Of a stretch of 64,000 nucleotides of DNA, positions 11,558-47,847 are shown one piece after another. Under the pieces are notes generated by a model. The model made no database searches and was not told where the DNA came from. It saw only the letters and a program-made list of their open reading frames with translations. Position 1 is the stretch's first letter. The number at the start of each line of letters is the position of its first letter. The translations under genes were made by a program, and so were the position numbers. The stretch comes from Lactimicrobium massiliense (GTDB taxonomy: Bacteria > Bacillota_I > Bacilli_A > Erysipelotrichales > Erysipelotrichaceae), in NCBI RefSeq assembly GCF_900343155.1, contig NZ_OUNG01000001.1:124001-188000 (forward strand), written 5' to 3'.

Positions 11558-12610
11558 TCATGAGCTATATGCCTCATAGAGGTTAATTGGCATTTTAAGC
11601 TTTGGGATCTCCGCACAGGTAAATGGAATCTGTTCAAACATTGTTTCCATGTATGCTTCTGATTTCCATTTGCGCATGTCCAGCCTGTACTTTAAATATT
11701 TCTTCATGACGATCCAATTCAAATAACCCTGGAGATGTCTTGTGCTGATACCATGTTTCTGCCTGATCATGTTTTTTAGCTCAGAGTGAAGCTCGTTTAC
11801 TTCAGATACTGTATTGCCCTTTGGTGTTAAATAACCGTTAGATGGAATAATGTCACTGTTGAAGTGATTATCGCCCACGAAAGTTTGAATGCTATGGCTG
11901 TCATCACTGATAATTGTTGAATGCGCTGCGAAGTGAGAGCTGTATTGATTCAGAATTTCTGCACTCTCTCTGCCTAATCCTCCAATTTTAAAGAGAATAT
12001 TGTCATGCTCATCAATAGCTGTTACCAGGCAGATCTTGTGATGGCTGGTGCCAGGTAAAGCACGCTTGGTTGAATGACGGCGATGCTTTCCACGCTGTTT
12101 GCTGAATCTTGGCATTTTATCCTTCCTGGTCCCTTTCAGGTTGATTTTGGTATAAGTAGGATCCAATTCAACATTTCCACTTAAGACCACATTATTCTGA
12201 ATCTTTGCTGCAGCCTGATATAACTTGTGACGCATGTTGAAGCAGGTAGTAACTGATAAGCCTGTAGCTACACTCTGCTGAGTCAGAGTCATTCCGTTAA
12301 GCTCGCCAGAGATAAAAGTAGTCCAGATATCAAAGCTTGTTCTGGAATGAGTAAACATCGTACCTGTTGTTGCCATAAAAACAGATTTGCATTTTTTACA
12401 TCTGTATTTCTGACGATTATGTGGGTTAAAGCCATTCTTAACAAAGTGAGTTGAACCACAATGAGGACATTTCTCAACATGCAAAGAGAGATTCTCGTAA
12501 TTTGTTGTCGTACAGTTTACTTTCTCTCTGAATAGCTTTTCTAAACCAACACGAATGAATTCAATTTCGACAGGAGATAAAGAATTCAGGAAATTCTGAT
12601 TAACGAGCAT
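11558..12610 (-). CDS. IS1595-family-like transposase
   Basis: 350 residues. The N-terminus has a zinc ribbon (CPHCG near 49 and CKKCKSVF near 77) typical of IS1595/ISXO2-like transposases. A DDE-type nuclease region follows, with a first acidic motif NVELDPTY and a second in IISDDSHS; HSELKNM and the family-like segment STRHLQGYLNWIVMKKY come near the end. The reading frame is intact and ends 46 bases inside the left element end, so the copy may be active. Family assignment rests on motifs and layout; the exact IS name cannot be given. Confidence 0.85.
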   Translation of the reverse strand: MLVNQNFLNSLSPVEIEFIRVGLEKLFREKVNCTTTNYENLSLHVEKCPHCGSTHFVKNGFNPHNRQKYRCKKCKSVFMATTGTMFTHSRTSFDIWTTFISGELNGMTLTQQSVATGLSVTTCFNMRHKLYQAAAKIQNNVVLSGNVELDPTYTKINLKGTRKDKMPRFSKQRGKHRRHSTKRALPGTSHHKICLVTAIDEHDNILFKIGGLGRESAEILNQYSSHFAAHSTIISDDSHSIQTFVGDNHFNSDIIPSNGYLTPKGNTVSEVNELHSELKNMIRQKHGISTRHLQGYLNWIVMKKYLKYRLDMRKWKSEAYMETMFEQIPFTCAEIPKLKMPINLYEAYSS

Positions 12611-14730: not shown

Positions 14731-14752
14731 TCCATAACAGCCGGAGTATTCG

Positions 14753-14780
14753 AAAAGGTGCCTGTAACTGGCACCTTTTC
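14753..14780. terminator. Bidirectional terminator between ispG and the envelope operon
   Basis: A 10-bp perfect stem (AAAAGGTGCC at 14753-14762, GGCACCTTTT at 14770-14779) with a 7-base loop. A-rich and T-rich arms give U tails in both directions, so it can serve ispG and the operon that converges on it. Confidence 0.85.
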
Positions 14781-14800: not shown

Positions 14801-16033
14801 TCAATAATTATAGCTGATCGTGTAGCCGCTACTTGGATTTGTATAGGAATACGAATATAACTGATCATCTGTCCAAAGAAATCTTTCTGCACCCCAGCCA
14901 GTTGTTGCATCCCAGTTAAGCCATTGTCCATTGTATAGAACCTTTACCCAGAAATGGCCATCGTTCGGAAGCTTACATTCCTGCGTTTCAAATCCAGCTC
15001 TGCACAAGAGTGCTCTTCCCACTGCATAATAATTGTAACAATCACCTGTGTAATAGGTCAGTCCATAAATAGCTGCTTCGCGCCAGTCAGAACTGTCTGG
15101 AGTCGCCTTGTAACGGATATTATTTTCCGTCCACTGATAAATCGCATAGCATCTTTGATAATCATCCATGGAATCATTGATAATGCCTGAAAGGATGCTG
15201 TCAGCGATTGAATTCAGATTTTCGTTTCCGGTATCACCAGCCGTCATTGCTGTGTTGGCACCTGTATCTGACACAGACTGTGAAGATGCCTGCTGTACTG
15301 TCTGCACTGTTTCCACCACCGAAACTACAGCAGAGGCATCCGCATCATTGCCGTTTTTATCTACTGCATGTACCGTAACAGTATATTCTCCAGGCTGCGT
15401 TGCATCGACATTGCCAGAAATTGTGTACCATCCGCTATCATAGAATCCCTTTTCGTTCTTTGCAGGTTCCGTATCAACTTTTATCAGATCACCATCAACT
15501 GGATCTTTGACGGAACTGATCAAAGATGCAGGATCAAAATCCTGATCTTTTTCAATGGAAACAGATTCAGATGACATGGTTATGACCGGCAGCTGCGTAT
15601 CTTTGACTGTAATGATAAGAGGAAAATCTTTGCTGACTTTATTTCCTTTTGCGTCAACATCATGCAGTGTATAGATCACTTCTGTCTCAGAAGGTACCGA
15701 AAGATCAATCGTATCCGGTTCGGCGGTCACTGAAAAGTCTGAGTTTCCTGAAATAGTTTGATCTTGCTCATATTGGTAGGTATATTTGCCATTGCCTGCT
15801 TCTACCAAAGACAACACATTCAGTGTTGTATCAGGCGCATACTCCTGCACTTCACTGCCTGCTTTCAAAGCACAGGTAAAGGAGGCAGCAGTTTCGGCAG
15901 CTGCTTTTTCCTCTGCCAGTACGTTATTGCGATGTATCTTGAATCCAATACCGCATGAAGCACAGACAACTGCTGCAGGAAGAATAACTTTCCAGACTTT
16001 TCTCAGTTTTCTCATATTCCTGTTGTAAATCAT
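14801..16033 (-). CDS. Membrane-anchored transglutaminase-like protein with Ig-like domains
   Basis: About 410 residues. A basic N-terminus and one hydrophobic segment (about 14-30) anchor it outside the membrane. Two Ig-like/DUF5011-type beta domains follow (about 100-240, with DTQLPVITM and GEYTVTVHAVDKNG), then a low-complexity linker. The C-terminal domain is a transglutaminase/protease fold with Cys332 in TGDCYNYY, His360 in DGHFWV and Asp375 in NWDAT. The start at 16033 follows the lipoprotein stop by four bases; an ATG at 16015 is equally possible and neither SD is strong. It is the last gene of the Dlt-like operon. The crosslinking or protease role is inferred. Confidence 0.78.
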   Translation of the reverse strand: MIYNRNMRKLRKVWKVILPAAVVCASCGIGFKIHRNNVLAEEKAAAETAASFTCALKAGSEVQEYAPDTTLNVLSLVEAGNGKYTYQYEQDQTISGNSDFSVTAEPDTIDLSVPSETEVIYTLHDVDAKGNKVSKDFPLIITVKDTQLPVITMSSESVSIEKDQDFDPASLISSVKDPVDGDLIKVDTEPAKNEKGFYDSGWYTISGNVDATQPGEYTVTVHAVDKNGNDADASAVVSVVETVQTVQQASSQSVSDTGANTAMTAGDTGNENLNSIADSILSGIINDSMDDYQRCYAIYQWTENNIRYKATPDSSDWREAAIYGLTYYTGDCYNYYAVGRALLCRAGFETQECKLPNDGHFWVKVLYNGQWLNWDATTGWGAERFLWTDDQLYSYSYTNPSSGYTISYNY

Positions 16034-16037
16034 TCTA

Positions 16038-16595
16038 TTACGCAAATGCATCAACTGATGAATATTCAATCTGCTGGATGGAATTATCATCATTGAAGAA
16101 GAATGTCAGGCGTGAATTGCCTTTCGTATATTCAAGGCTGGCTCCGCGTTCTTCATAATCACTCCCATATGTTTTGATGACATCATCTTTAGAGCTGGAC
16201 AAGTCAATACCCTCAGGAGTAGCCACATTATCTGTCTTCAGATCAACATAGCAGATCAGATCCTTGCCATCTTTCTCATAAGTGGTGATTTCATAATCTG
16301 AATACGTATAGATTTTTGACAAACCACCCTGTCCGGCACAGCTTGCTTCTTCATAATAGCTGTTTTCTTTGCCGAGAAGATTCAGAGCATCTTCCATGTT
16401 TTCATCCATTTTGAGTGTACCGCCATTGACATCAAAGACATATTCACTGGTTGTTTCAGATTGGCTGGATGATGCTGTTTCGCTCGCAGCAGATGGTGCA
16501 ACACTTGCATTTTCTGATGCTGTCTCATCAACCTTTGTGACACAGCCGGCAAGCAAGGCAGCAGTGACAATCGCCATAAAGATTTTCTTTTTCAT
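16038..16595 (-). CDS. Small lipoprotein between two transglutaminase-like genes
   Basis: 185 residues: a lipoprotein signal with lipobox LLAGC, a Ser/Glu/Ala-rich linker, then a compact domain with an acidic GKENSYYEEASCAGQGG stretch and several beta strands. I do not recognise the family. GGGAG five bases upstream fixes the start at 16595, rather than the in-frame ATG at 16613. It sits four bases before the second transglutaminase-like gene and 15 after the first, so it likely works with them at the outer membrane face, perhaps as partner or inhibitor. That role is inferred only from position. Confidence 0.7.
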   Translation of the reverse strand: MKKKIFMAIVTAALLAGCVTKVDETASENASVAPSAASETASSSQSETTSEYVFDVNGGTLKMDENMEDALNLLGKENSYYEEASCAGQGGLSKIYTYSDYEITTYEKDGKDLICYVDLKTDNVATPEGIDLSSSKDDVIKTYGSDYEERGASLEYTKGNSRLTFFFNDDNSIQQIEYSSVDAFA

Positions 16596-16609
16596 ATTTT
16601 CTCCCTTTG

Positions 16610-17629
16610 TCAATCCGTAATATCCGGATATAGTGATGGATCAAACTGGTAGTAACCAGGATGTGTCTGATCATAAACTGCCAGAGTAGAAGTCGGAACA
16701 TAGATGAAGATTGTTCCGTCTGGTCTTCCACGCATACAATCCAAATGATACCATCCATCTCCAATGTTCACGATCAGCCACAGATGCGGACCAAGGCCAT
16801 ACGTATCTAGGCGATGAACTACCATATTCTCAATTCCTGCACGATTCAGAAGTTCCTGTGCTGTATAGCATGCGACATAACAGTCACCCACACGGTAGTA
16901 CAGGCCAAGATATACCTCACTAACAGGTGGATTGGTTTCAACATGCTTCTCTGCATACCGAATATTATAATAAACCCAGTTGCCAATCGCAGTGATCTTC
17001 TCACGGTCCGACATGGAACTGATATCAAGCTCTGTCAGGATATCATCTGCCATGGCATCGTTGATTTCCTGAGGTGTGGTTGGAATTTTCTTATCAACAG
17101 TGAGCTGCAAAGTAATTGAGGATGTATTGCCAGAAGAATCCGCCGCGGTATAGATAATCGGATATGTGCCAGGTGTATCAATATCAACAGCGCTTGAATC
17201 TACCTGTATATCTACATCATCTCCTGAATTATCCGTTACCGTAACCTGTTTTTTGTAAGATATGGTGTCTCCGGCAGTACATTCAAAATTATTGCCAGTA
17301 ATGACCGGAGGCGTTGTATCTGTAATCTTTAATACTGTCGGATACAAATAGTTTCCTGACTCAATCTTTACATGATAAGTACCCGGTGTTTTGGTATTGT
17401 ATTCATCCCCTTCATCACTCACAAATCCTTGATATCCATCTTTCATAAACATGGATGGATCCAACTGACTGCCAGCTTCGATTGTTACTTCTGGCTTGAC
17501 ACGATTAAAATAGCGCAGACGGATATACGTTGGAACACCTTTTCTAATCAGAATCGTTATCAGTACCAGAACACCCCCAATAACCGCCACTGCAATCGTA
17601 GATTTTCTTCTTGAATATTGCTTCCCCAT
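16610..17629 (-). CDS. Membrane-anchored transglutaminase-like protein
   Basis: 339 residues. Residues 11-29 form an N-terminal membrane anchor. Two short Ig-like domains follow (45-103 and 104-180, the second with TTPPVITGNNF and GTYPIIYTAADSSGN). The C-terminal transglutaminase-like domain has the triad Cys250 in VGDCYVACY, His282 in GPHLWL and Asp297 in YHLDCM. It is a paralogue in layout of the protein encoded two genes downstream, but the two differ clearly in sequence. Position right after the asparagine synthase gene suggests a shared envelope function. Crosslinking, hydrolysis or a non-catalytic role are all possible. Confidence 0.78.
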   Translation of the reverse strand: MGKQYSRRKSTIAVAVIGGVLVLITILIRKGVPTYIRLRYFNRVKPEVTIEAGSQLDPSMFMKDGYQGFVSDEGDEYNTKTPGTYHVKIESGNYLYPTVLKITDTTPPVITGNNFECTAGDTISYKKQVTVTDNSGDDVDIQVDSSAVDIDTPGTYPIIYTAADSSGNTSSITLQLTVDKKIPTTPQEINDAMADDILTELDISSMSDREKITAIGNWVYYNIRYAEKHVETNPPVSEVYLGLYYRVGDCYVACYTAQELLNRAGIENMVVHRLDTYGLGPHLWLIVNIGDGWYHLDCMRGRPDGTIFIYVPTSTLAVYDQTHPGYYQFDPSLYPDITD

Positions 17630-17643
17630 ATATCTGTACCACC

Positions 17644-19488
17644 TTAGATTTCAATCTTCATCTGATAGGTTTCACAGAGCATTGTTACGGTAAGAACAAT
17701 CATCAGATAGTCAATCTTATAAGCACCCATAAGTTTGAAATCATCCGAAGCATATACTTCCTTCATATGGCTGACATATTCGGGATCAAAGATGCCATAT
17801 TTGCGGATCAGAGCATCATCAAGATAATTGTTCTCTGATGGATGCTTGATCATAGAAGACATACCCGGTGCCTGGAATGGAAACTTCTTTCGCTTCAGAA
17901 TTGGGTCAGGTACAATACCGATCCCAGCTTTTTTCAGGATGTATTTTTCATTTGTACCATGCAGTTTGTATTTATCGGGAATAGTCATTACAAAAGAGAC
18001 TAACTCTGGATCAAGGAACGGATGGCGGCCTTCAACACTGTGAGCAAAAGTCATGTGATCGCCATGTTCGATCAGCAGGTGATCCTGTAAGCGAAGATGG
18101 AAGTCTATGTAACTGCGGCGCTGCTGGGTCGTCACATTTTTTACTGCATCCAGATTAATCGGACTTTCCTGCAATGCAGAGAACTGAGGCAAATTTGCAA
18201 CAATATCCTGAGAATAGATCTTCGTCTGAATTTCTCTTTCAGCCAGATGATCTCTCTCAAACCTGAAATTCGGATCCCCCCACAGACGTGCATTTAATTC
18301 CTGTTCATCAGGAGAAATGGCCTCCTTGTTCATATTGCGGAATTTATCAATCAGATAGCCAATATACCCACAGAACAATTCATCGCTGCCCTGTCCAGTA
18401 AGAACCGCCTTTGCTGGCGAAGCCTGTACCAGACTGGAAAGCATATATGCAGCCGTATCGTAAGATTCCTTCACTGCTGTTTCGGTATGGTATATCACAT
18501 CAGGAAGACACTTCCAGATGACCTCATCATTGATCACCGTACTATAATGCTTTGATTTGACACACTCCTTTACCATCGCCTGGAAATTGCTCTCATCCAG
18601 GTCTCCCTCACCAATTTCTGCAGAGAAAGAATAATAGGAATTCAGCAGGAATTTACCGATATAGCATGCAACAATCGAACTGTCCAGACCTCCTGATACA
18701 TAAAAGCCAATTGGAACATCTGCAATCAACCTTCTGGAAATTGCCTTCACCAGCAGTTCCTTCAGATGAGAAACATAGTAATCCAGACCAAGATCTTCCG
18801 TTACCGGATGATACAGCATTTCATAGTATGTCTTCTTTTCAGGTTCCTTTCCTGCCTGAAAGATCATCATCTTACCGGCTTCCAAAGCATTGATTCCCTT
18901 GAAGAAAGTAACCGGTGCAACGATACCAGGAAAATTCATCAGCTGATCAACAGCTTTCATGTTGAGAATGCGGGGCATGCCAGGATATTCCAGAATTGCC
19001 TTGATTTCCGAGCCAAAAATAATCCGTCCATCTTTTATCGTATAGAAGAGAGGACAAATGCCAAACTGATCACGGATCAATACGAGCATGTTCTTCTTTG
19101 CATCATACAGTGCGATGGCAAATTGTCCATTGATATGGATGGGAAAATCCAAGCCATATTCTTCATAGAGATGGGCAACGACCTCTGTATCAGTCTTTGT
19201 GCGAAAGGAATGCCCTTTCCTGATCAGATCAGCTTTCAGTTCCTGGTAATTGAAAATCTCACCGTTTACAATTGTTGCAATGGAGCAATCCTCGTTAAAC
19301 AGCGGCTGCATACCACCCTTTAAATCAATGAAGCTCAGCCTGGTAAAGCCAAGAGAAATCCTGCGGTCATGCCAGCTGTTCTGCCCATCAGGGCCGCGAT
19401 GTTTGAGCTTTGCCAGCATATGATCGATAATACCCGGATCAAATGCTTTATCATTTTCAAAATTATAAATACCACATATGCCACACAT
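17644..19488 (-). CDS. asnB: Glutamine-hydrolysing asparagine synthase family protein
   Basis: 614 residues, a complete class II amidotransferase plus synthetase. The mature N-terminus would start with Cys2 (MCGICGIYNF), the glutaminase nucleophile; KHRGPDGQ and VNGEIFNY line that site. The synthetase half has the PP-loop YVSGGLDSS and the GQGSDELF motif. The reaction is ATP-dependent transfer of ammonia from glutamine to a carboxylate, usually aspartate. Relatives such as C. glutamicum LtsA and B. subtilis AsnB act on peptidoglycan precursors. Being inside the adenylation/ACP/MBOAT operon, 15 bases from its neighbours, it more likely amidates an envelope substrate than makes free asparagine; this is inference. 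Confidence 0.88.
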   Translation of the reverse strand: MCGICGIYNFENDKAFDPGIIDHMLAKLKHRGPDGQNSWHDRRISLGFTRLSFIDLKGGMQPLFNEDCSIATIVNGEIFNYQELKADLIRKGHSFRTKTDTEVVAHLYEEYGLDFPIHINGQFAIALYDAKKNMLVLIRDQFGICPLFYTIKDGRIIFGSEIKAILEYPGMPRILNMKAVDQLMNFPGIVAPVTFFKGINALEAGKMMIFQAGKEPEKKTYYEMLYHPVTEDLGLDYYVSHLKELLVKAISRRLIADVPIGFYVSGGLDSSIVACYIGKFLLNSYYSFSAEIGEGDLDESNFQAMVKECVKSKHYSTVINDEVIWKCLPDVIYHTETAVKESYDTAAYMLSSLVQASPAKAVLTGQGSDELFCGYIGYLIDKFRNMNKEAISPDEQELNARLWGDPNFRFERDHLAEREIQTKIYSQDIVANLPQFSALQESPINLDAVKNVTTQQRRSYIDFHLRLQDHLLIEHGDHMTFAHSVEGRHPFLDPELVSFVMTIPDKYKLHGTNEKYILKKAGIGIVPDPILKRKKFPFQAPGMSSMIKHPSENNYLDDALIRKYGIFDPEYVSHMKEVYASDDFKLMGAYKIDYLMIVLTVTMLCETYQMKIEI

Positions 19489-19503
19489 AAACTTTCCCCC
19501 TGC

Positions 19504-20547
19504 TTAATTCAGATTGTATTTCTTTTTCTGATTCTCAATCTCGGCATTCTGTGCATCGGCAACCTTCTGCCAAGAAGATGCAAGTGCTGTCTCATTCCGC
19601 CGATCTGGAACACCATATTGATCAACCAGAATCTGTCCAAAATAATCCGACATCTTATCAGCACCAGACAGATTAAGGTGCAGACCCGCATCATAAGTAT
19701 CCGTGGAATAGTCCAGCCCGATATCATCCTTATACTCCAGCCAGTTATAATATGGGAGCCCATACTGATCGGCATACTCCTTTACCTGCTGGTTGTACTC
19801 GTCATACCAGTGCGGCCATAGCGATGGTGCTTTTACAAGAATCAGCTGAATACCGTTTTCTTCACACAATTTTCTTATTTTATCCATGTATTCCCAGGCT
19901 TTATCACCAAATGTATAGTCTGTTAATGGACGCGGATCCGGCACATTATCTGCCGGCAAAATATCAACACGCATGTAATAGCCATTAAAACAATGATGCG
20001 CATGTTTGAACATGTAAGTAAAATCTGTCTCTTTCAGATCGGACCAGCGGGAATGATAACGCAGGAATGGAAAGACATAGTCAATAAAGTGTTCATTCTC
20101 TTTCATTGATGCATTGATGGCATCTACTTTTTCACGTGACCATTTCATGCCATCAAGAGCCATGCGGTTATATGCTTCATTCTGCGATTCATTGAATTGC
20201 AGTGATTGCGCATTAAATACAACCACTTTTGGAATATGATAATGCAAAGATTCCTTTAACATGTAATAGGACTGCCAGATATACTGTTCTGCATTGCCGC
20301 GGATATAGCTGTTGATCCCATACTTCTGCCAGAGTTCGACTGGATTATATGTTTCATAAACTTCACAATCTCCAATGAACATTACATCAAAATCTTTATT
20401 TTCTTCATCGTAATATTCCTGCGTCATGGTTCCTTCCAGCACATCATCTACATATTTTGGCATGAATAAGCGCTGCAGCAACCAGAGAACAACAGCCGTA
20501 GAAAGGATGCTGCACAGAAATAACGCAATATTTCTTTTCTTATGCAT
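19504..20547 (-). CDS. SGNH-like extracytoplasmic protein with Cys at the nucleophile position
   Basis: 347 residues: an N-terminal membrane anchor (about 7-28) and an SGNH/GDSL-like domain outside the cell. Block I reads MFIGDCEVYE, so Cys61 stands where DltD/AlgX-like proteins have Ser. Block V is DAGLHLNLSGADKM, giving Asp286 and His290 in the usual DxxxH spacing. Such proteins act after an MBOAT protein, moving an acyl or aminoacyl group to the final polymer, as DltD is proposed to do. The MBOAT gene lies 14 bases upstream. A Cys-based intermediate is a prediction. Confidence 0.78.
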   Translation of the reverse strand: MHKKRNIALFLCSILSTAVVLWLLQRLFMPKYVDDVLEGTMTQEYYDEENKDFDVMFIGDCEVYETYNPVELWQKYGINSYIRGNAEQYIWQSYYMLKESLHYHIPKVVVFNAQSLQFNESQNEAYNRMALDGMKWSREKVDAINASMKENEHFIDYVFPFLRYHSRWSDLKETDFTYMFKHAHHCFNGYYMRVDILPADNVPDPRPLTDYTFGDKAWEYMDKIRKLCEENGIQLILVKAPSLWPHWYDEYNQQVKEYADQYGLPYYNWLEYKDDIGLDYSTDTYDAGLHLNLSGADKMSDYFGQILVDQYGVPDRRNETALASSWQKVADAQNAEIENQKKKYNLN

Positions 20548-20561
20548 GGATTTTTCTCCTT

Positions 20562-22145
20562 TCAGAAGCGGTTATAGATAAACTGGCTGGCATCATAACC
20601 AATGCCATAAGCACCAAAGACGGCAATCACAAGGAACAAACTGCACCAGATCAGTAATTGTACAGCAACAGGTTTTACAGCGATCTGATCGCGTACCGGC
20701 TGGCGGCGCTGTTTCATACTGACCATAAACATTAACAGACATCCAAGTGCAACAACCAGCAGATCTACAGCGCTCAATCCTGCTGTAAAGAAACTTCCAT
20801 CTGCAAGAATGCAATAATTCTTTCCGCTGAAGATAGAGAAAAAGGAATGAACTGTATCTCTCACTGATGCATAGCAGTCAAACATATTCATGATTGCGAT
20901 CAATAAGACGGTACGGATGATTTCAAATCCTTCATACGCACGGGTAACCGGAACCTTTTGATGAAATTTATCATAGAGCGGTTCGAGTTCCTCGGAAATC
21001 ATCAGAACCAGGAAATTCAGAACACCCCAGAGTATAAAGTTCCAGCTGGCACCATGCCAGATACCGGTTGCCAGCCATACAATGAAAGAAGATAAATAGA
21101 CTGGCAGTTTTCTACCAATATTTTCCCCTACGTGTTTACGCAGCCAGCGTGAGAAATGCTGCATCTTACGGCTCATGGAAATTGGATAAAACATATAGTC
21201 TCTGAACCAGGAAGACATTGAGATGTGCCACCTGCGCCAGTATTCCTTAAGCGAGCGTGAAAAATAAGGACGAATAAAGTTTTCCTGCAGCTTAACGCCA
21301 AATAACTGAGCAGTACCGATTGTGATATCAATACCACCAGTAAAATCAGCATACAATTCAATGGTGTAGAGAATCATTCCAGCAAGTGCCCAGCCGCCTG
21401 TGTATGTAGATGGATCACCTGTAACAGTTGCAACAAAGCCTGCAAGTCTGTCTGCAATAACCATCTTTTTAAAGAATCCCCACAGCATTCTCTCAACGCC
21501 GTAGGTAACTTCTTTTACAGAAAAATCATGTTGAGAAAACATGGATTCGCTGACATCGCCAAAGCGGTTGATGGGGCCCTGTACGATCGCAGGAAAGAAA
21601 GACAGGAAAAGCAGCAGTTTTAAAGGATTTTTCACAGCTTTGAACTTATCCTTTTTGACATCAACCAGGTAGCCGATTGCCATGAACATATAGAAAGATA
21701 TTCCCATAGGCTGGGCAAGTGAAATGAATGTCAGACGGTATCCAGCATGGGCATTGGCAAGCAGATGATTAATGTTATCCAGCGCAAAGCTGCTGTACTT
21801 TACGACGGCAAGAACCACAATGTTCAGAACAATACAAAGAGTCATCCACCTGACTCGGTTAGATGACATTTTATTCTTATATTGGTTTTTTTCTTTGCGG
21901 TCAGCTTGTGCATGATGACGCAGCCACTTTTTCTGTCTCACCCAGCTGTTGGTAATCTGAATGGAAGAAAACCACGTTGTAAAGGAAGTGACCAGAAGGT
22001 AAATAATATACTTCGGGCCGCCCCACATGTAGAACGCCAGGCTTCCTGCCAGCAGAATCAGCCACTGACACTTCTTTGGCAGCGCATAGTAAAGCAGGAA
22101 TAGTACGCAGACAAAGCCAATGAATGTAAATGATGTAAACAGCAT
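20562..22145 (-). CDS. MBOAT-family O-acyltransferase (DltB/AlgI-like)
   Basis: 527 residues with about twelve hydrophobic segments and the MBOAT hallmark: the motif GIWHGASWNF with the catalytic His, and the earlier EYWRRWHISMSSWFRDYMFYPI stretch. Members move an acyl group, or D-alanine from a carrier protein in DltB, across the membrane to an extracytoplasmic acceptor. Its gene follows the carrier protein gene by four bases, which points to the carrier as donor. It is longer than typical DltB (about 400 residues) and nearer to AlgI-like proteins, so the acceptor need not be teichoic acid. Confidence 0.88.
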   Translation of the reverse strand: MLFTSFTFIGFVCVLFLLYYALPKKCQWLILLAGSLAFYMWGGPKYIIYLLVTSFTTWFSSIQITNSWVRQKKWLRHHAQADRKEKNQYKNKMSSNRVRWMTLCIVLNIVVLAVVKYSSFALDNINHLLANAHAGYRLTFISLAQPMGISFYMFMAIGYLVDVKKDKFKAVKNPLKLLLFLSFFPAIVQGPINRFGDVSESMFSQHDFSVKEVTYGVERMLWGFFKKMVIADRLAGFVATVTGDPSTYTGGWALAGMILYTIELYADFTGGIDITIGTAQLFGVKLQENFIRPYFSRSLKEYWRRWHISMSSWFRDYMFYPISMSRKMQHFSRWLRKHVGENIGRKLPVYLSSFIVWLATGIWHGASWNFILWGVLNFLVLMISEELEPLYDKFHQKVPVTRAYEGFEIIRTVLLIAIMNMFDCYASVRDTVHSFFSIFSGKNYCILADGSFFTAGLSAVDLLVVALGCLLMFMVSMKQRRQPVRDQIAVKPVAVQLLIWCSLFLVIAVFGAYGIGYDASQFIYNRF

Positions 22146-22149
22146 ATAT

Positions 22150-22389
22150 TCAATCGAGTTTGGAATCGATTAAAGCAGCCATTGCATCAACACTGTTAAA
22201 GTTTTCAGGAATCAGATCATCCGAATCAATATCCACATCAAATTCTTCACCAAGATCTGTTACCAGAGTCACGATATCAAATGAATCCAGCACCTTGTTG
22301 GTGATAAGTTTATCTTCAGACTCAAAATCGATGTTAGGATGAAGATTCTTCAGAATTTCCAGTAATGTTTCTCTTGTGTTTGCAGACAT
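22150..22389 (-). CDS. Acyl/aminoacyl carrier protein (DltC-like)
   Basis: 79 residues, acidic and helical, with the phosphopantetheine attachment site at Ser36 in VLDSFDIV. The usual DSL is DSF here. Length matches DltC (78-80). The GGGGG-containing SD eight bases upstream selects the ATG at 22389; an in-frame ATG at 22407 overlaps the adenylation gene stop. It would receive the activated amino acid from the enzyme encoded directly upstream and present it to the MBOAT protein encoded directly downstream. Confidence 0.88.
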   Translation of the reverse strand: MSANTRETLLEILKNLHPNIDFESEDKLITNKVLDSFDIVTLVTDLGEEFDVDIDSDDLIPENFNSVDAMAALIDSKLD

Positions 22390-22403
22390 GTGATTTTCCC
22401 CCT

Positions 22404-23903
22404 TCATTGCATATTTTCCAATGCTTTCCGATCAATTTTACCATTTGCGGTAAAAGGAATTTCTGTCAGATGCACCGTACGGTTTGGCATCATATATCGC
22501 GGTAACAATGTATTCAACCGGTCCGTCAGCTCAGCAGGTTCAATATCGCCTGTATAAAACAGCTTGATCAGACTGCGCTTGTGATCATAGACACAGCCGC
22601 ACATTTTTACCTCTTCAATCTTATTGACATCAGCTTCAATCTCGCCTAACTCAATTCGATGTCCCATATGCTTGATCTGATAGTCGCGGCGGGAACCAAA
22701 CATCAGATTTCCATCTTCAGTCCGCTTTCCCATATCTCCTGTGCGATAAATAATCTCCGGATAGACATGATTCAGAGGATTTTGAACATACACTTCTCTC
22801 GTCTTTTCAGGATTGTTATAATAACCAAGCGTCACACAAGTTCCTCGCAGGCAGATTTCCCCTTCTTCACCAGGTTCGGCAAGCGTATTGTCATCTTTTA
22901 ACAGCAGAACCTCTGTATTTTTAAACGGAACACCAATCGGAATCGAATCTCCATTGAAATTCTTAGGCACATGATAGTAGCAACTCATGCCAGTGCCTTC
23001 TGTCGGACCATAAAGATTTGTAAAGTCGGCATCAGGTAATGCGTCCTGCCATCTGCGGAACTGTCTGATCGGGAAAACCTCGCTGCCAAAAGCAATTGTT
23101 TTCAGATATTCTGGTTTAATGGACTTGAATGTATTGAACGCAGAGATCATCGTCAGTGCAGAAACAACCCAACAGATTGTATTAATCTTTTTCTCATTGA
23201 GGAACTGAACAAGATACTTTGGGGTTGAAAACAATTCCTTCGGAATCAGCCATGTTGTAGCTCCAAACATGATCGTCGGATAGATTTCCTTCAAGCATGC
23301 ATCAAAATACAGAGGTGTCTGATTTCCAAATATGGTGTCACGGTTAAAATGCAGAGTTTCAGATAACTGATTAACATAATCCAGCACAGATCGATGACAG
23401 GCAGTAACACCCTTTGGCACACCGGTCGAGCCGGAAGTAAAGACAATGTATATTGGGTCAACATCCAGCGCATGTGCTTCAATTGCTTTCAACGCTTCTG
23501 CATCAACAATCGTGTTCTTCAACTTGGAGAATGAATAACGCTTTCCCTCAAAAGGCAACCGATCAGCAGAATCTTTTGTATCTTCATCGTAAATCATGGC
23601 CCGTGGATGACAATTCTGTATGATCAGCTCAATTCTGGAAGCAGGCATTTCTGCATCAATAGGCACATAAAAACAGCCGCTCCTGATCACGCCAAAAAAA
23701 GCAGCAATCGTGTCGGCTGATTTTTCCATGTAAATAAGCACCGGCTCACGATAATATCCTTCCTGATGAAGAGCCGTGCCAATACTGTTTACATTCTGAT
23801 AAAGCTGTGAAAAAGTTAATGAATGATGGACATCTGCAAAAGCCGTTTTTTCCGGTACTTCTTTTACAATTCTGTCAAGATATGTAAGCACATTTGTAAT
23901 CAT
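22404..23903 (-). CDS. Amino-acid adenylation enzyme (DltA-like)
   Basis: 499 residues, a stand-alone ANL-family adenylation enzyme. It has the P-loop core FTSGSTGVPKGV (about 156-167), TNLYGPTEGTG, YRTGDMG, the hinge FGSRRDYQIKHMGHRIE and the C-terminal catalytic Lys in NGKIDRKAL. Asp201 in LYFDACL matches the residue that binds the alpha-amino group in amino-acid-activating enzymes. The pocket segment WVVSALTMI differs from the usual DltA pattern, so D-alanine cannot be assumed. It would charge the carrier protein, whose gene begins at once downstream. The ATG at 23903 has no SD, and a promoter -10 box ends seven bases before it. Confidence 0.85.
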   Translation of the reverse strand: MITNVLTYLDRIVKEVPEKTAFADVHHSLTFSQLYQNVNSIGTALHQEGYYREPVLIYMEKSADTIAAFFGVIRSGCFYVPIDAEMPASRIELIIQNCHPRAMIYDEDTKDSADRLPFEGKRYSFSKLKNTIVDAEALKAIEAHALDVDPIYIVFTSGSTGVPKGVTACHRSVLDYVNQLSETLHFNRDTIFGNQTPLYFDACLKEIYPTIMFGATTWLIPKELFSTPKYLVQFLNEKKINTICWVVSALTMISAFNTFKSIKPEYLKTIAFGSEVFPIRQFRRWQDALPDADFTNLYGPTEGTGMSCYYHVPKNFNGDSIPIGVPFKNTEVLLLKDDNTLAEPGEEGEICLRGTCVTLGYYNNPEKTREVYVQNPLNHVYPEIIYRTGDMGKRTEDGNLMFGSRRDYQIKHMGHRIELGEIEADVNKIEEVKMCGCVYDHKRSLIKLFYTGDIEPAELTDRLNTLLPRYMMPNRTVHLTEIPFTANGKIDRKALENMQ

Positions 23904-23910
23904 GTAATCG

Positions 23911-23939
23911 ATGTTACCGTGTAAGCGCTTTATCGTCAA
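23911..23939 (-). promoter_or_regulatory. Promoter of the Dlt-like operon with a cre-like site in the spacer
   Basis: Minus strand: -35 TTGACG (23934-23939), exactly 17 bases, -10 TAACAT (23911-23916). Only seven bases separate the -10 box from the start codon, so transcription would begin at or next to the ATG. The plus-strand sequence TGTAAGCGCTTTAT (23920-23933) fits the cre consensus at 13 of 14 positions and fills the spacer. Confidence 0.68.
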
Positions 23940-45973: not shown

Positions 45974-47281
45974 TTACTTACGATTATTGAGGTAGTATTC
46001 CAACGGGTTGACCAGTCCTGGTCGACCTGTTTTCCTACTTGGCAGGGCCAGTACTTTCGGGCTGAGAGCGTAATTTACCACATCCATTCCACTCCTCCGA
46101 TACCATCCTAGGCGTGAGTTGGCTACCTTGTATGTATCTTCATCGGTGAAATTACAATGGAACATAGCGTTAAGCCTTTGGAGATTTGTGTCTATACGCT
46201 TCGGTTTCTTCCATTGCTTGATGATGATGACTCTGACTTTGTGCCGCATCCACTGTCCATATTCATCGAGGAAAGCCTTCATATCTCCGATGATGAAATA
46301 ATTGATCCATCCTCTGACGATCTGATTCAGTTTTGTGAATGTGACGGCCAGAGGTCTGGATATTGCTTCCTTGCGTTGCAGGACAGCCTTGGTTTTCGCC
46401 ATCAGCCGTTTCTTTCTGTCATCACTCGGTTTGCAGTGCCATCCGTCTTTTGCCTTCCAGTACGTAAAGCCTAGGAACTCGCTGTGTGTTGGCCTGACCA
46501 CCTTTGTCTTGGTTGGACTGACCTTCAGAAACAGCTTTCGTTCCAGCCATGAGGCTACCGACTTCATCACTCTGTCTGCCGCCATTTCGCTCTTCACGAA
46601 GATGTCGCAGTCATCTGCGTACCGCACAAAATGCAGTCCTCTGCTCTCCAGTTCTTTGTCAAATTTATCGAGATAAATAAGGCTAAGTATCGGACTGAGG
46701 GGTCCGCCTTGCGGAACGCCTAGTTCAGTTGGTGATACGAGTCCGTTCACCATGACGCCAGCCTTCAGAAAGGACCGGATCAGGTGTAACGTTCTCTTGT
46801 CGTTTACCTTTTCTCTCAAAATGGAGATTAATTTGTCATGATTCACCGTATCGAAATACTTTTCGATGTCGAGATCAATCACCCAGTCGTATCCGCTGTT
46901 CAGATTATTCAGGACATCCTTCATCGCATCATGTGCGCTTCTGTTTGGCCTGAATCCATAACTATGGTCACTGAATGTGCTGTCGTAGATGCCGCTGAGT
47001 ACCTGGGCTGCTGCCTGCTGTACCACCCGGTCTGCGACTGACGGAATACCTAATGGCCTTTGCTTGCCATTGGGCTTGGGTATATAGACCCTGCGGACTG
47101 GTTTCGGTCTGTACTGCATGTTCCGGATCTGCTGTTTGATTATTTCTTTATGTTTAGAGAAATACTCATCCAGCTCACTGGTTTTCATGCCGTCCACGCC
47201 GGCCGCGCCACGGTTTCTCTTAACCCTTCTGATCGCTTCTTCCAAGTTTTCGTCACTCAGAATCACTTCAATTAATTCCAT
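45974..47281 (-). CDS. Group II intron reverse transcriptase/maturase
   Basis: 435 residues, intact. The reverse transcriptase domain (about 15-290) begins NRGAAGVDGM and has YGFRPNRSAHDA, GVPQGGPLSP and the catalytic YADD. A maturase/X domain (about 300-400, with GWINYF) follows. There is no HNH endonuclease, as expected for class C introns, which use single-stranded or hairpin DNA targets. It promotes splicing and retrohoming of its host intron. The stop lies only ten bases from domain V. Confidence 0.93.
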   Translation of the reverse strand: MELIEVILSDENLEEAIRRVKRNRGAAGVDGMKTSELDEYFSKHKEIIKQQIRNMQYRPKPVRRVYIPKPNGKQRPLGIPSVADRVVQQAAAQVLSGIYDSTFSDHSYGFRPNRSAHDAMKDVLNNLNSGYDWVIDLDIEKYFDTVNHDKLISILREKVNDKRTLHLIRSFLKAGVMVNGLVSPTELGVPQGGPLSPILSLIYLDKFDKELESRGLHFVRYADDCDIFVKSEMAADRVMKSVASWLERKLFLKVSPTKTKVVRPTHSEFLGFTYWKAKDGWHCKPSDDRKKRLMAKTKAVLQRKEAISRPLAVTFTKLNQIVRGWINYFIIGDMKAFLDEYGQWMRHKVRVIIIKQWKKPKRIDTNLQRLNAMFHCNFTDEDTYKVANSRLGWYRRSGMDVVNYALSPKVLALPSRKTGRPGLVNPLEYYLNNRK

Positions 47282-47847
47282 ACCGCTGTGCCATTCCTTT
47301 CTATCTGTAGATTATTCAGAATCATCCCGGGGCCCTTTGCCGTCAGAGGTTACGATCCTCTGCTGTAGGCTTATCCTCCCTTTCGGACTATCCGAACATT
47401 GCGTATAGTGGGGCACACTATACAAACATTAGGTCCTTCGCTCCACTTCCGTTACAGAAGCTTCATCACTACTATGACCTCAGCTGACTTCCTGCGATAG
47501 ACCTTTATCCGACCAGATGATAACGATAGCTGTTTAAAAGCGTCTCGGTTTCCCTGTGTTTAGGTTCATCTGTCCGCAGGATCTCTCGGGGTAAGACACA
47601 CATCTGTAATTTCCATAGCTTCCTGATTTACCGGTCGGCTTTACGTTTGTCTTTTGGACTTCAGCTTGCATAGCAGCCTTATCCGCCTTATGGCCTCAAT
47701 CAGGTTTCTGTACGTAAGCTCAGAAATATGCTAGCTACTGCTTTCGCTCTGGGTTATTCACCCTCGGCTGGTAGTTCACTTCGCTTGGCGACAAATACCC
47801 GCGGCCTGCCTCTATTGCAGGCTAGATGTGTGCCATGCCCGACACAC
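47282..47847 (-). ncRNA. Group II intron ribozyme, domains I to III and start of IV
   Basis: A 566-base non-coding stretch forming the 5' part of the intron RNA. It is GC-richer and full of short complementary segments, such as the opening GTGTGTCGGGCATGGCACAC hairpin and the GCCTGCAATAGAGGCAGGC hairpin close behind. It holds no gene. I did not resolve the exon-binding sequences. Confidence 0.8.

Follow-up and report, generated by a model that had tools for sequence, protein, structure and literature searches.

The eight-gene operon and its export core

The window analysed here, a stretch of 64,000 nucleotides from Lactimicrobium massiliense (contig NZ_OUNG01000001.1, positions 124,001 to 188,000), contains a candidate Dlt-like operon of eight minus-strand genes, tightly packed from 23903 down to 14801 in the order A, C, B, D, asnB, T1, L and T2 (Table 1). 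They code for an adenylation enzyme, a carrier protein, a membrane acyltransferase of the MBOAT family, an SGNH-type transferase, an AsnB-like amidotransferase and a lipoprotein (L) placed between two transglutaminase-like (TG-like) proteins. An initial annotation, made from the sequence alone, had listed the same co-directional genes in this order, and this was confirmed. It had also stated that no gap exceeds 16 bases, which is right for the gaps of 4-15 bases and wrong for the one of ~22 bases before T2. Each of C, D, asnB, T1 and L has a good ribosome-binding site upstream. The likeliest starts were chosen by ribosome-binding site plus ATG (A 23903, C 22389, L 16595, T2 ~16015), and on these grounds a TTG at 23939 was set aside as the start of A. 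By its anatomy, the cluster is predicted to be one transcription unit.

Genes A, C, B and D support the earlier assignment to a Dlt-type export system, and the export relay as such is well supported by anatomy. The proteins score under the NCBIfam cut-offs for canonical Dlt components, both at the equivalog level for A (DltA, TIGR01734, 299.4 bits, cut-off 559.85) and B (DltB, TIGR04091, 154.7 bits, cut-off 375) and with the DltC model NF003464 for C (23.7 bits, cut-off 68). D had no NCBIfam match, and its match to the Pfam family GDSL was sub-threshold (28.9 bits, cut-off 32.9). The MBOAT protein conserves the GIWHG motif with the catalytic His, and its last six residues, FIYNRF, fit exactly the FxYxxF acyl-shuttle motif found in DltX and also at the C-terminus of PatA itself (PMC12148441). 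All 39 related MBOATs share this kind of motif at the C-terminus. It is strictly FxYxxF in 19; in the rest the first Phe is replaced by a different hydrophobic residue or by Pro, or the last by Tyr. A separate dltX is absent from the operon, where gaps of at most 22 bases leave no room for one. The initial annotation was thus correct in that there is no dltX gene; this is not a loss, however, because the motif is fused to the MBOAT as in PatA. Other MBOAT/SGNH pathways have no carrier protein (PMC12148441); judging from their sequences, the operons of this group pair a carrier with an MBOAT-fused shuttle.

Table 1. Features of the operon and its downstream end (positions in the window)
Feature	Position	Strand	Evidence
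A, stand-alone amino-acid adenylation enzyme, 499 amino acids	22404..23903	-	TIGR01733 333 bits (cut-off 317); AMP-binding (Pfam) 225 bits
C, carrier protein, phosphopantetheine site LDSFD	22150..22389	-	PF00550 (PP-binding) 22.9 bits (cut-off 20.8)
B, MBOAT membrane acyltransferase	20562..22145	-	PF03062 65.6 bits
FIYNRF acyl-shuttle hexapeptide (FxYxxF), MBOAT C-terminus, dltX stand-in	20565..20582	-	sequence; motif per PMC12148441
D, SGNH-type extracytoplasmic transferase, N-terminal membrane anchor	19504..20547	-	homology to SGNH partners of related loci
Cys61 of D (GDC), SGNH nucleophile position	20365..20367	-	conservation in clade
AsnB-like glutamine-dependent amidotransferase	17644..19488	-	TIGR01536 430 bits (cut-off 267); Asn_synthase (Pfam) 225 bits
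T1, membrane-anchored transglutaminase-like protein, Ig-like domain	16610..17629	-	PF01841 27.3 bits (cut-off 23); PF16403 35.2; Cys-His-Asp triad
L, lipoprotein, kept downstream of D in relatives	16038..16595	-	lipobox LLAGC
T2, second transglutaminase-like protein, Ig-like domain	14801..16015 (reading frame open to 16093)	-	PF01841 28.3 bits (cut-off 23); triad
Palindrome GAAAAGGTGCC-AGTTACA-GGCACCTTTTC, possible terminator, between the convergent operon and ispG	14752..14780	.	read by eye

Related loci and the adenylation pocket

Searches with A defined a clade of nine loci, the window included, whose members have A proteins 51-59% identical to that of the window. The others are L085 (genome G604), L086 (G278), L087 (G279), L105 (G280), L101 (G274), L106 and L107 (both G271) and L126 (contig MT837917.1). 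An Asp/Glu-type racemase adjoins A in seven of the nine. The order is racemase-A-C-B-D-L in L086, L087 and L126, with an additional TG gene ahead of the racemase in L086, and racemase-A-C-B-D in L105, which then comes near its contig end. L085 (with two TG genes), L106 and L107 show TG-racemase-A before the contig ends, and L101 shows TG-A-C up to the contig end with no adjacent racemase. TG-like genes thus lie within the cluster in 6/9 loci, the window and five relatives. The lipoprotein is present in all four loci with sequence well beyond D, that is, the window, where L is 35-45% identical to the L086 and L087 copies and 29% to that of L126, and these three relatives. The earlier proposal that envelope-side accessory proteins are real companions of the core is borne out by these TG-like and lipoprotein genes, and since several of its families recur together in other genomes, the neighbourhood goes beyond chance.

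The amidotransferase gene is different, being found only in the window within the clade (0/8 other loci), and no comparable asnB was found in the other genomes of the order (316, E<=1e-100) or in the phylum sample (392). The idea of a conserved set of eight genes was therefore not upheld by the co-occurrence search: the exact set occurs, as far as searched, only in this genome, while the core recurs. Of the 196 sampled genomes of the family, 27 have relatives of A at E<=1e-60, and only the window's own A falls in the clade. Contig MT837917.1, of human faecal origin, is recorded as Bacteriophage sp. and carries its operon with no visible phage gene; it is probably a mislabelled bacterial contig. 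Scanning of viral contigs with alignments of A and AsnB gave nothing relevant. A literature search, outside which most subscription journals fell, returned no paper on an operon of Dlt type that includes asnB or an Asp-type racemase.

The pocket code of the window A, DAKCIFLGMK, was inferred from an ungapped alignment with LgrA and GrsA. The initial annotation had described this pocket as unlike that of DltA, and the comparison agrees. It differs from the pockets of the racemase loci at most by an I/V exchange (DAKC[VI]FLGMK); L101 has DAKTIFLGVK. Loci with a pyridoxal phosphate (PLP) dependent decarboxylase have DVKx[VI]FLCNK in 28 of 28 cases, and those with neither racemase, asnB nor decarboxylase have SMxYVFLDIK or a close variant. 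A maximum-likelihood tree grouped the window A with the racemase loci (support 98/95) and placed the 28 decarboxylase loci in one sister clade (100/99). As the pocket type tracks the companion enzyme, the companions probably supply or trim the substrate of A. A Lys at the position equivalent to GrsA 239 is present in all racemase-type and decarboxylase-type loci; a Lys here marks glutamate-activating domains of nonribosomal peptide synthetases (NRPS), for whose code string a literature search found no paper. The two actinomycete A proteins closest to asnB plus racemase have Arg there. In a third adenylation group (L046, L047, L088, L089, L092, L094 and L097) Ser replaces the conserved Asp235 and no companion enzyme is present; the sequences suggest a substrate without an alpha-amino group.

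In all three racemases tested, the two catalytic Cys motifs (PCxTAH and LGCTE) are kept and the scores exceed the cut-offs of both Pfam Asp_Glu_race and NCBIfam TIGR00035. The substrate, left open by the initial annotation, can be narrowed by the frequency of this racemase beside A in the clade to a probable acidic amino acid resembling aspartate or glutamate. The racemase family and a precedent in peptidoglycan speak for aspartate, with glutamate and cysteate as further candidates. An ordinary D-alanylation pathway with a divergent ligase, in which asnB and the TG-like genes would be bystanders, is quite improbable. In its favour, A matches DltA models over the full length (308 and 299 bits) and DltA chains of the PDB (3dhv, 221 bits), and no gene of the whole genome attains the DltA cut-off, so that the operon could serve that role. 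However, the Dlt equivalog cut-offs are missed widely, the racemase next to A in the relatives is of the Asp/Glu type and not an alanine racemase, and other members of the clade also have TG-like and lipoprotein genes.

A possible amidation, envelope-side proteins and a proposed mechanism

The AsnB-like protein of the window has an intact glutaminase Cys2 (MCGICG) and ATP site (SGGLDSS), and reaches 298 bits with the AsnB equivalog NF006949 (cut-off 499). A canonical asnB is located elsewhere in the genome (576 bits with the same model), ruling out that the operon gene is the only asparagine synthase of the cell; the cell can be supplied with asparagine without the operon AsnB. The named proteins nearest to the operon AsnB (36-41% identity) belong to NRPS clusters of Streptomyces and Kitasatospora, share ETxVKE-like and HGDxM motifs with it and, in two of the three clusters, are accompanied by an Asp/Glu-type racemase. 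In Lactococcus lactis, D-Asp made by RacD is attached to the peptidoglycan by AslA and amidated by AsnH, which is thought to reduce negative charge (PMC4155827). The window operon has neither racemase nor ATP-grasp ligase beside the amidotransferase. Elsewhere in the same genome (C6:381252-385161), an asnB-like gene, a weak ATP-grasp match and an Asp/Glu-type racemase lie in a row that resembles AsnH/AslA/RacD, followed by two NlpC/P60 genes on the opposite strand.

The decarboxylase of the sister clade is of the diaminopimelate-decarboxylase type and falls in the same clade as BtrK, an enzyme for which glutamate is decarboxylated while bound to a carrier (PMC7857480). We infer a common theme, the activation of an acidic amino acid whose second carboxylate the decarboxylase removes or AsnB caps; in the racemase-only loci this group may be left free. 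Amidation would then be a local addition in the window, as far as gene content tells. The L. massiliense genome has a second Dlt-like locus (C7:428600-434069) with MBOAT, SGNH (Ser), adenylation enzyme, PLP fold-III decarboxylase and carrier genes, its A being 38% identical to that of the window. At L037:393-9057 (genome G018), one adenylation enzyme is followed by two MBOAT-SGNH pairs and a GNAT acetyltransferase lies between A and C.

The nucleophile position of D reads GDC where SGNH enzymes have GDS, so that the usual Ser-His-Asp triad is not found, and its Asp/His block is intact (YDAGLH). Cys occupies the position in the five clade members that show D and Ser in all 33 other relatives. 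A sequencing error is ruled out, as the Cys is kept in five separate loci of widely differing base composition; the Cys-type SGNH protein is a feature of the clade. We speculate that the Cys may alter the chemistry, through a thioester and possibly aminolysis. Both T1 and T2 carry a hydrophobic segment at the N-terminus and contain Ig-like domains and a complete Cys-His-Asp triad. Searching the genome for PF01841 gave three genes including T2 (T1 was missed there, though above the cut-off as a protein), and with so few in the genome two in one operon are not background. They could act in crosslinking, hydrolysis or transfer, which sequence alone does not separate. L had no family match and is recognisable by its lipobox only. 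AlphaFold single-sequence models of L and D had a mean pLDDT (predicted local distance difference test) of ~40 and were not used.

On these data we propose a carrier-dependent MBOAT-SGNH aminoacylation, a variant of Dlt that would export an aspartate-like residue amidated by AsnB at the second carboxylate; we judge this scheme evenly poised between right and wrong. A would adenylate the acidic amino acid and load it on C; the most likely one is aspartate, which in the relatives would have the D form. AsnB would use glutamine to amidate the second carboxylate, with loss of its charge. The MBOAT would take the residue over from C on the Tyr within its C-terminal motif, and the SGNH protein would accept it on Cys61 for transfer to an extracellular polymer. 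Outside, the lipoprotein and the two TG-like proteins would act on the product.

Several observations weigh against this scheme. The window operon has no racemase, and a search of the genome turned up a single member of the family, the one on C6, with 37% identity. Aspartate is not proven, as TIGR00035/PF01177 spans racemases for several acids and several of the racemases come close to or pass the cut-off of the cysteate-racemase model NF052483. The asnB gene comes after D, not at the racemase position, and occurs in no relative. The pocket code, placed by alignment, is weak evidence by itself, and nothing points to which polymer is the acceptor. A rather unlikely alternative keeps the export of an acidic amino acid as in the relatives and gives AsnB another target before export, for example a residue of peptidoglycan or a uronic acid in the acceptor polysaccharide. 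The position of asnB after D among envelope-acting genes would fit this, AsnB-like amidotransferases occur in exopolysaccharide loci (TIGR03108, 349 bits here, below the cut-off of 817), and AsnB1 (on meso-diaminopimelate) and AsnH (on D-Asp) amidate cell walls (PMC4155827); but the named proteins that are nearest to it and share its active-site motifs come from NRPS clusters, not polysaccharide loci, and the operon has no glycosyltransferase or sugar gene. It is improbable that A activates asparagine made by AsnB, or else glutamine, so that the exported residue is Asn from the outset with no amidated aspartyl intermediate. This would give asnB a simple role replacing the racemase, within the same pocket class, yet the pocket is nearly identical in racemase loci that lack asnB, and the canonical asnB already supplies asparagine.

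If the proposed export of an amidated aspartate-like residue is extended, the operon could represent an envelope modification of an undescribed class, in which D-aspartate (here D-isoasparagine) passes through a carrier-MBOAT-Tyr relay, a Cys-type SGNH thioester favours amide formation and TG-like proteins process the product at the surface, with sister clades exporting decarboxylated residues by the same relay; we regard this extension as possible and somewhat doubtful. More generally, the loci suggest that Dlt-type export is a modular platform and not a single D-alanine pathway, with the same relay of carrier, MBOAT and SGNH protein and a companion (racemase, amidotransferase or decarboxylase) that sets which amino acid reaches the surface. 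Amidation or decarboxylation of the second carboxylate would leave a net positive group, the charge logic of D-alanylation. Two predictions follow, that these bacteria carry aminoacyl groups as yet unknown on their envelopes and that they have an SGNH transferase of the Cys type, with directly testable chemistry.

Genomic setting and comparison with known systems

The operon is flanked by nfo upstream on the same strand and by a convergent ispG, on whose side lies the palindrome of Table 1, missing from the list of the scan. At 42.1%, its G+C content is lower than that of the window (47.8%) and of the flanking genes (47-51%), and it was likely acquired horizontally. An IS1595-type transposase (PF12762) is found at 11558-12610, ~2 kb past the downstream end, and a group II intron on the minus strand, with a reverse transcriptase reading frame at 45974-47281 and two Rfam group II domain matches at 47433-47765.

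Among known systems, Dlt (DltA, DltC, DltB, DltX and DltD) shares with the operon an adenylation enzyme, a separate carrier, an MBOAT and an SGNH protein in one operon. The differences here are the missed NCBIfam cut-offs, the shuttle fused to the MBOAT, another A pocket, Cys for the SGNH Ser and the extra racemase or asnB, lipoprotein and TG-like genes. Acyltransferases of the PatA/PatB type have the same shuttle at the MBOAT C-terminus and a separate SGNH partner, but PatA uses acetyl from acetyl-CoA in place of a dedicated carrier and adenylation enzyme. The exosortase A-associated set (TIGR03098, TIGR03099 and TIGR03108) combines the families AMP ligase, PLP decarboxylase and AsnB-like protein that appear across the locus group, although all matches are far under the cut-offs and the genomic setting is another. 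BtrI/BtrK of butirosin synthesis, with a PLP fold-III decarboxylase acting on a carrier-bound acidic residue, offers a model for the sister clade; the window has no decarboxylase and butirosin is a small molecule. Finally, the RacD/AslA/AsnH pathway would share the use of an Asp-type racemase (in the relatives) and an AsnB-like amidotransferase (in the window) for one wall-bound amino acid, but it employs an ATP-grasp ligase on intracellular peptidoglycan precursors, with no carrier or MBOAT.

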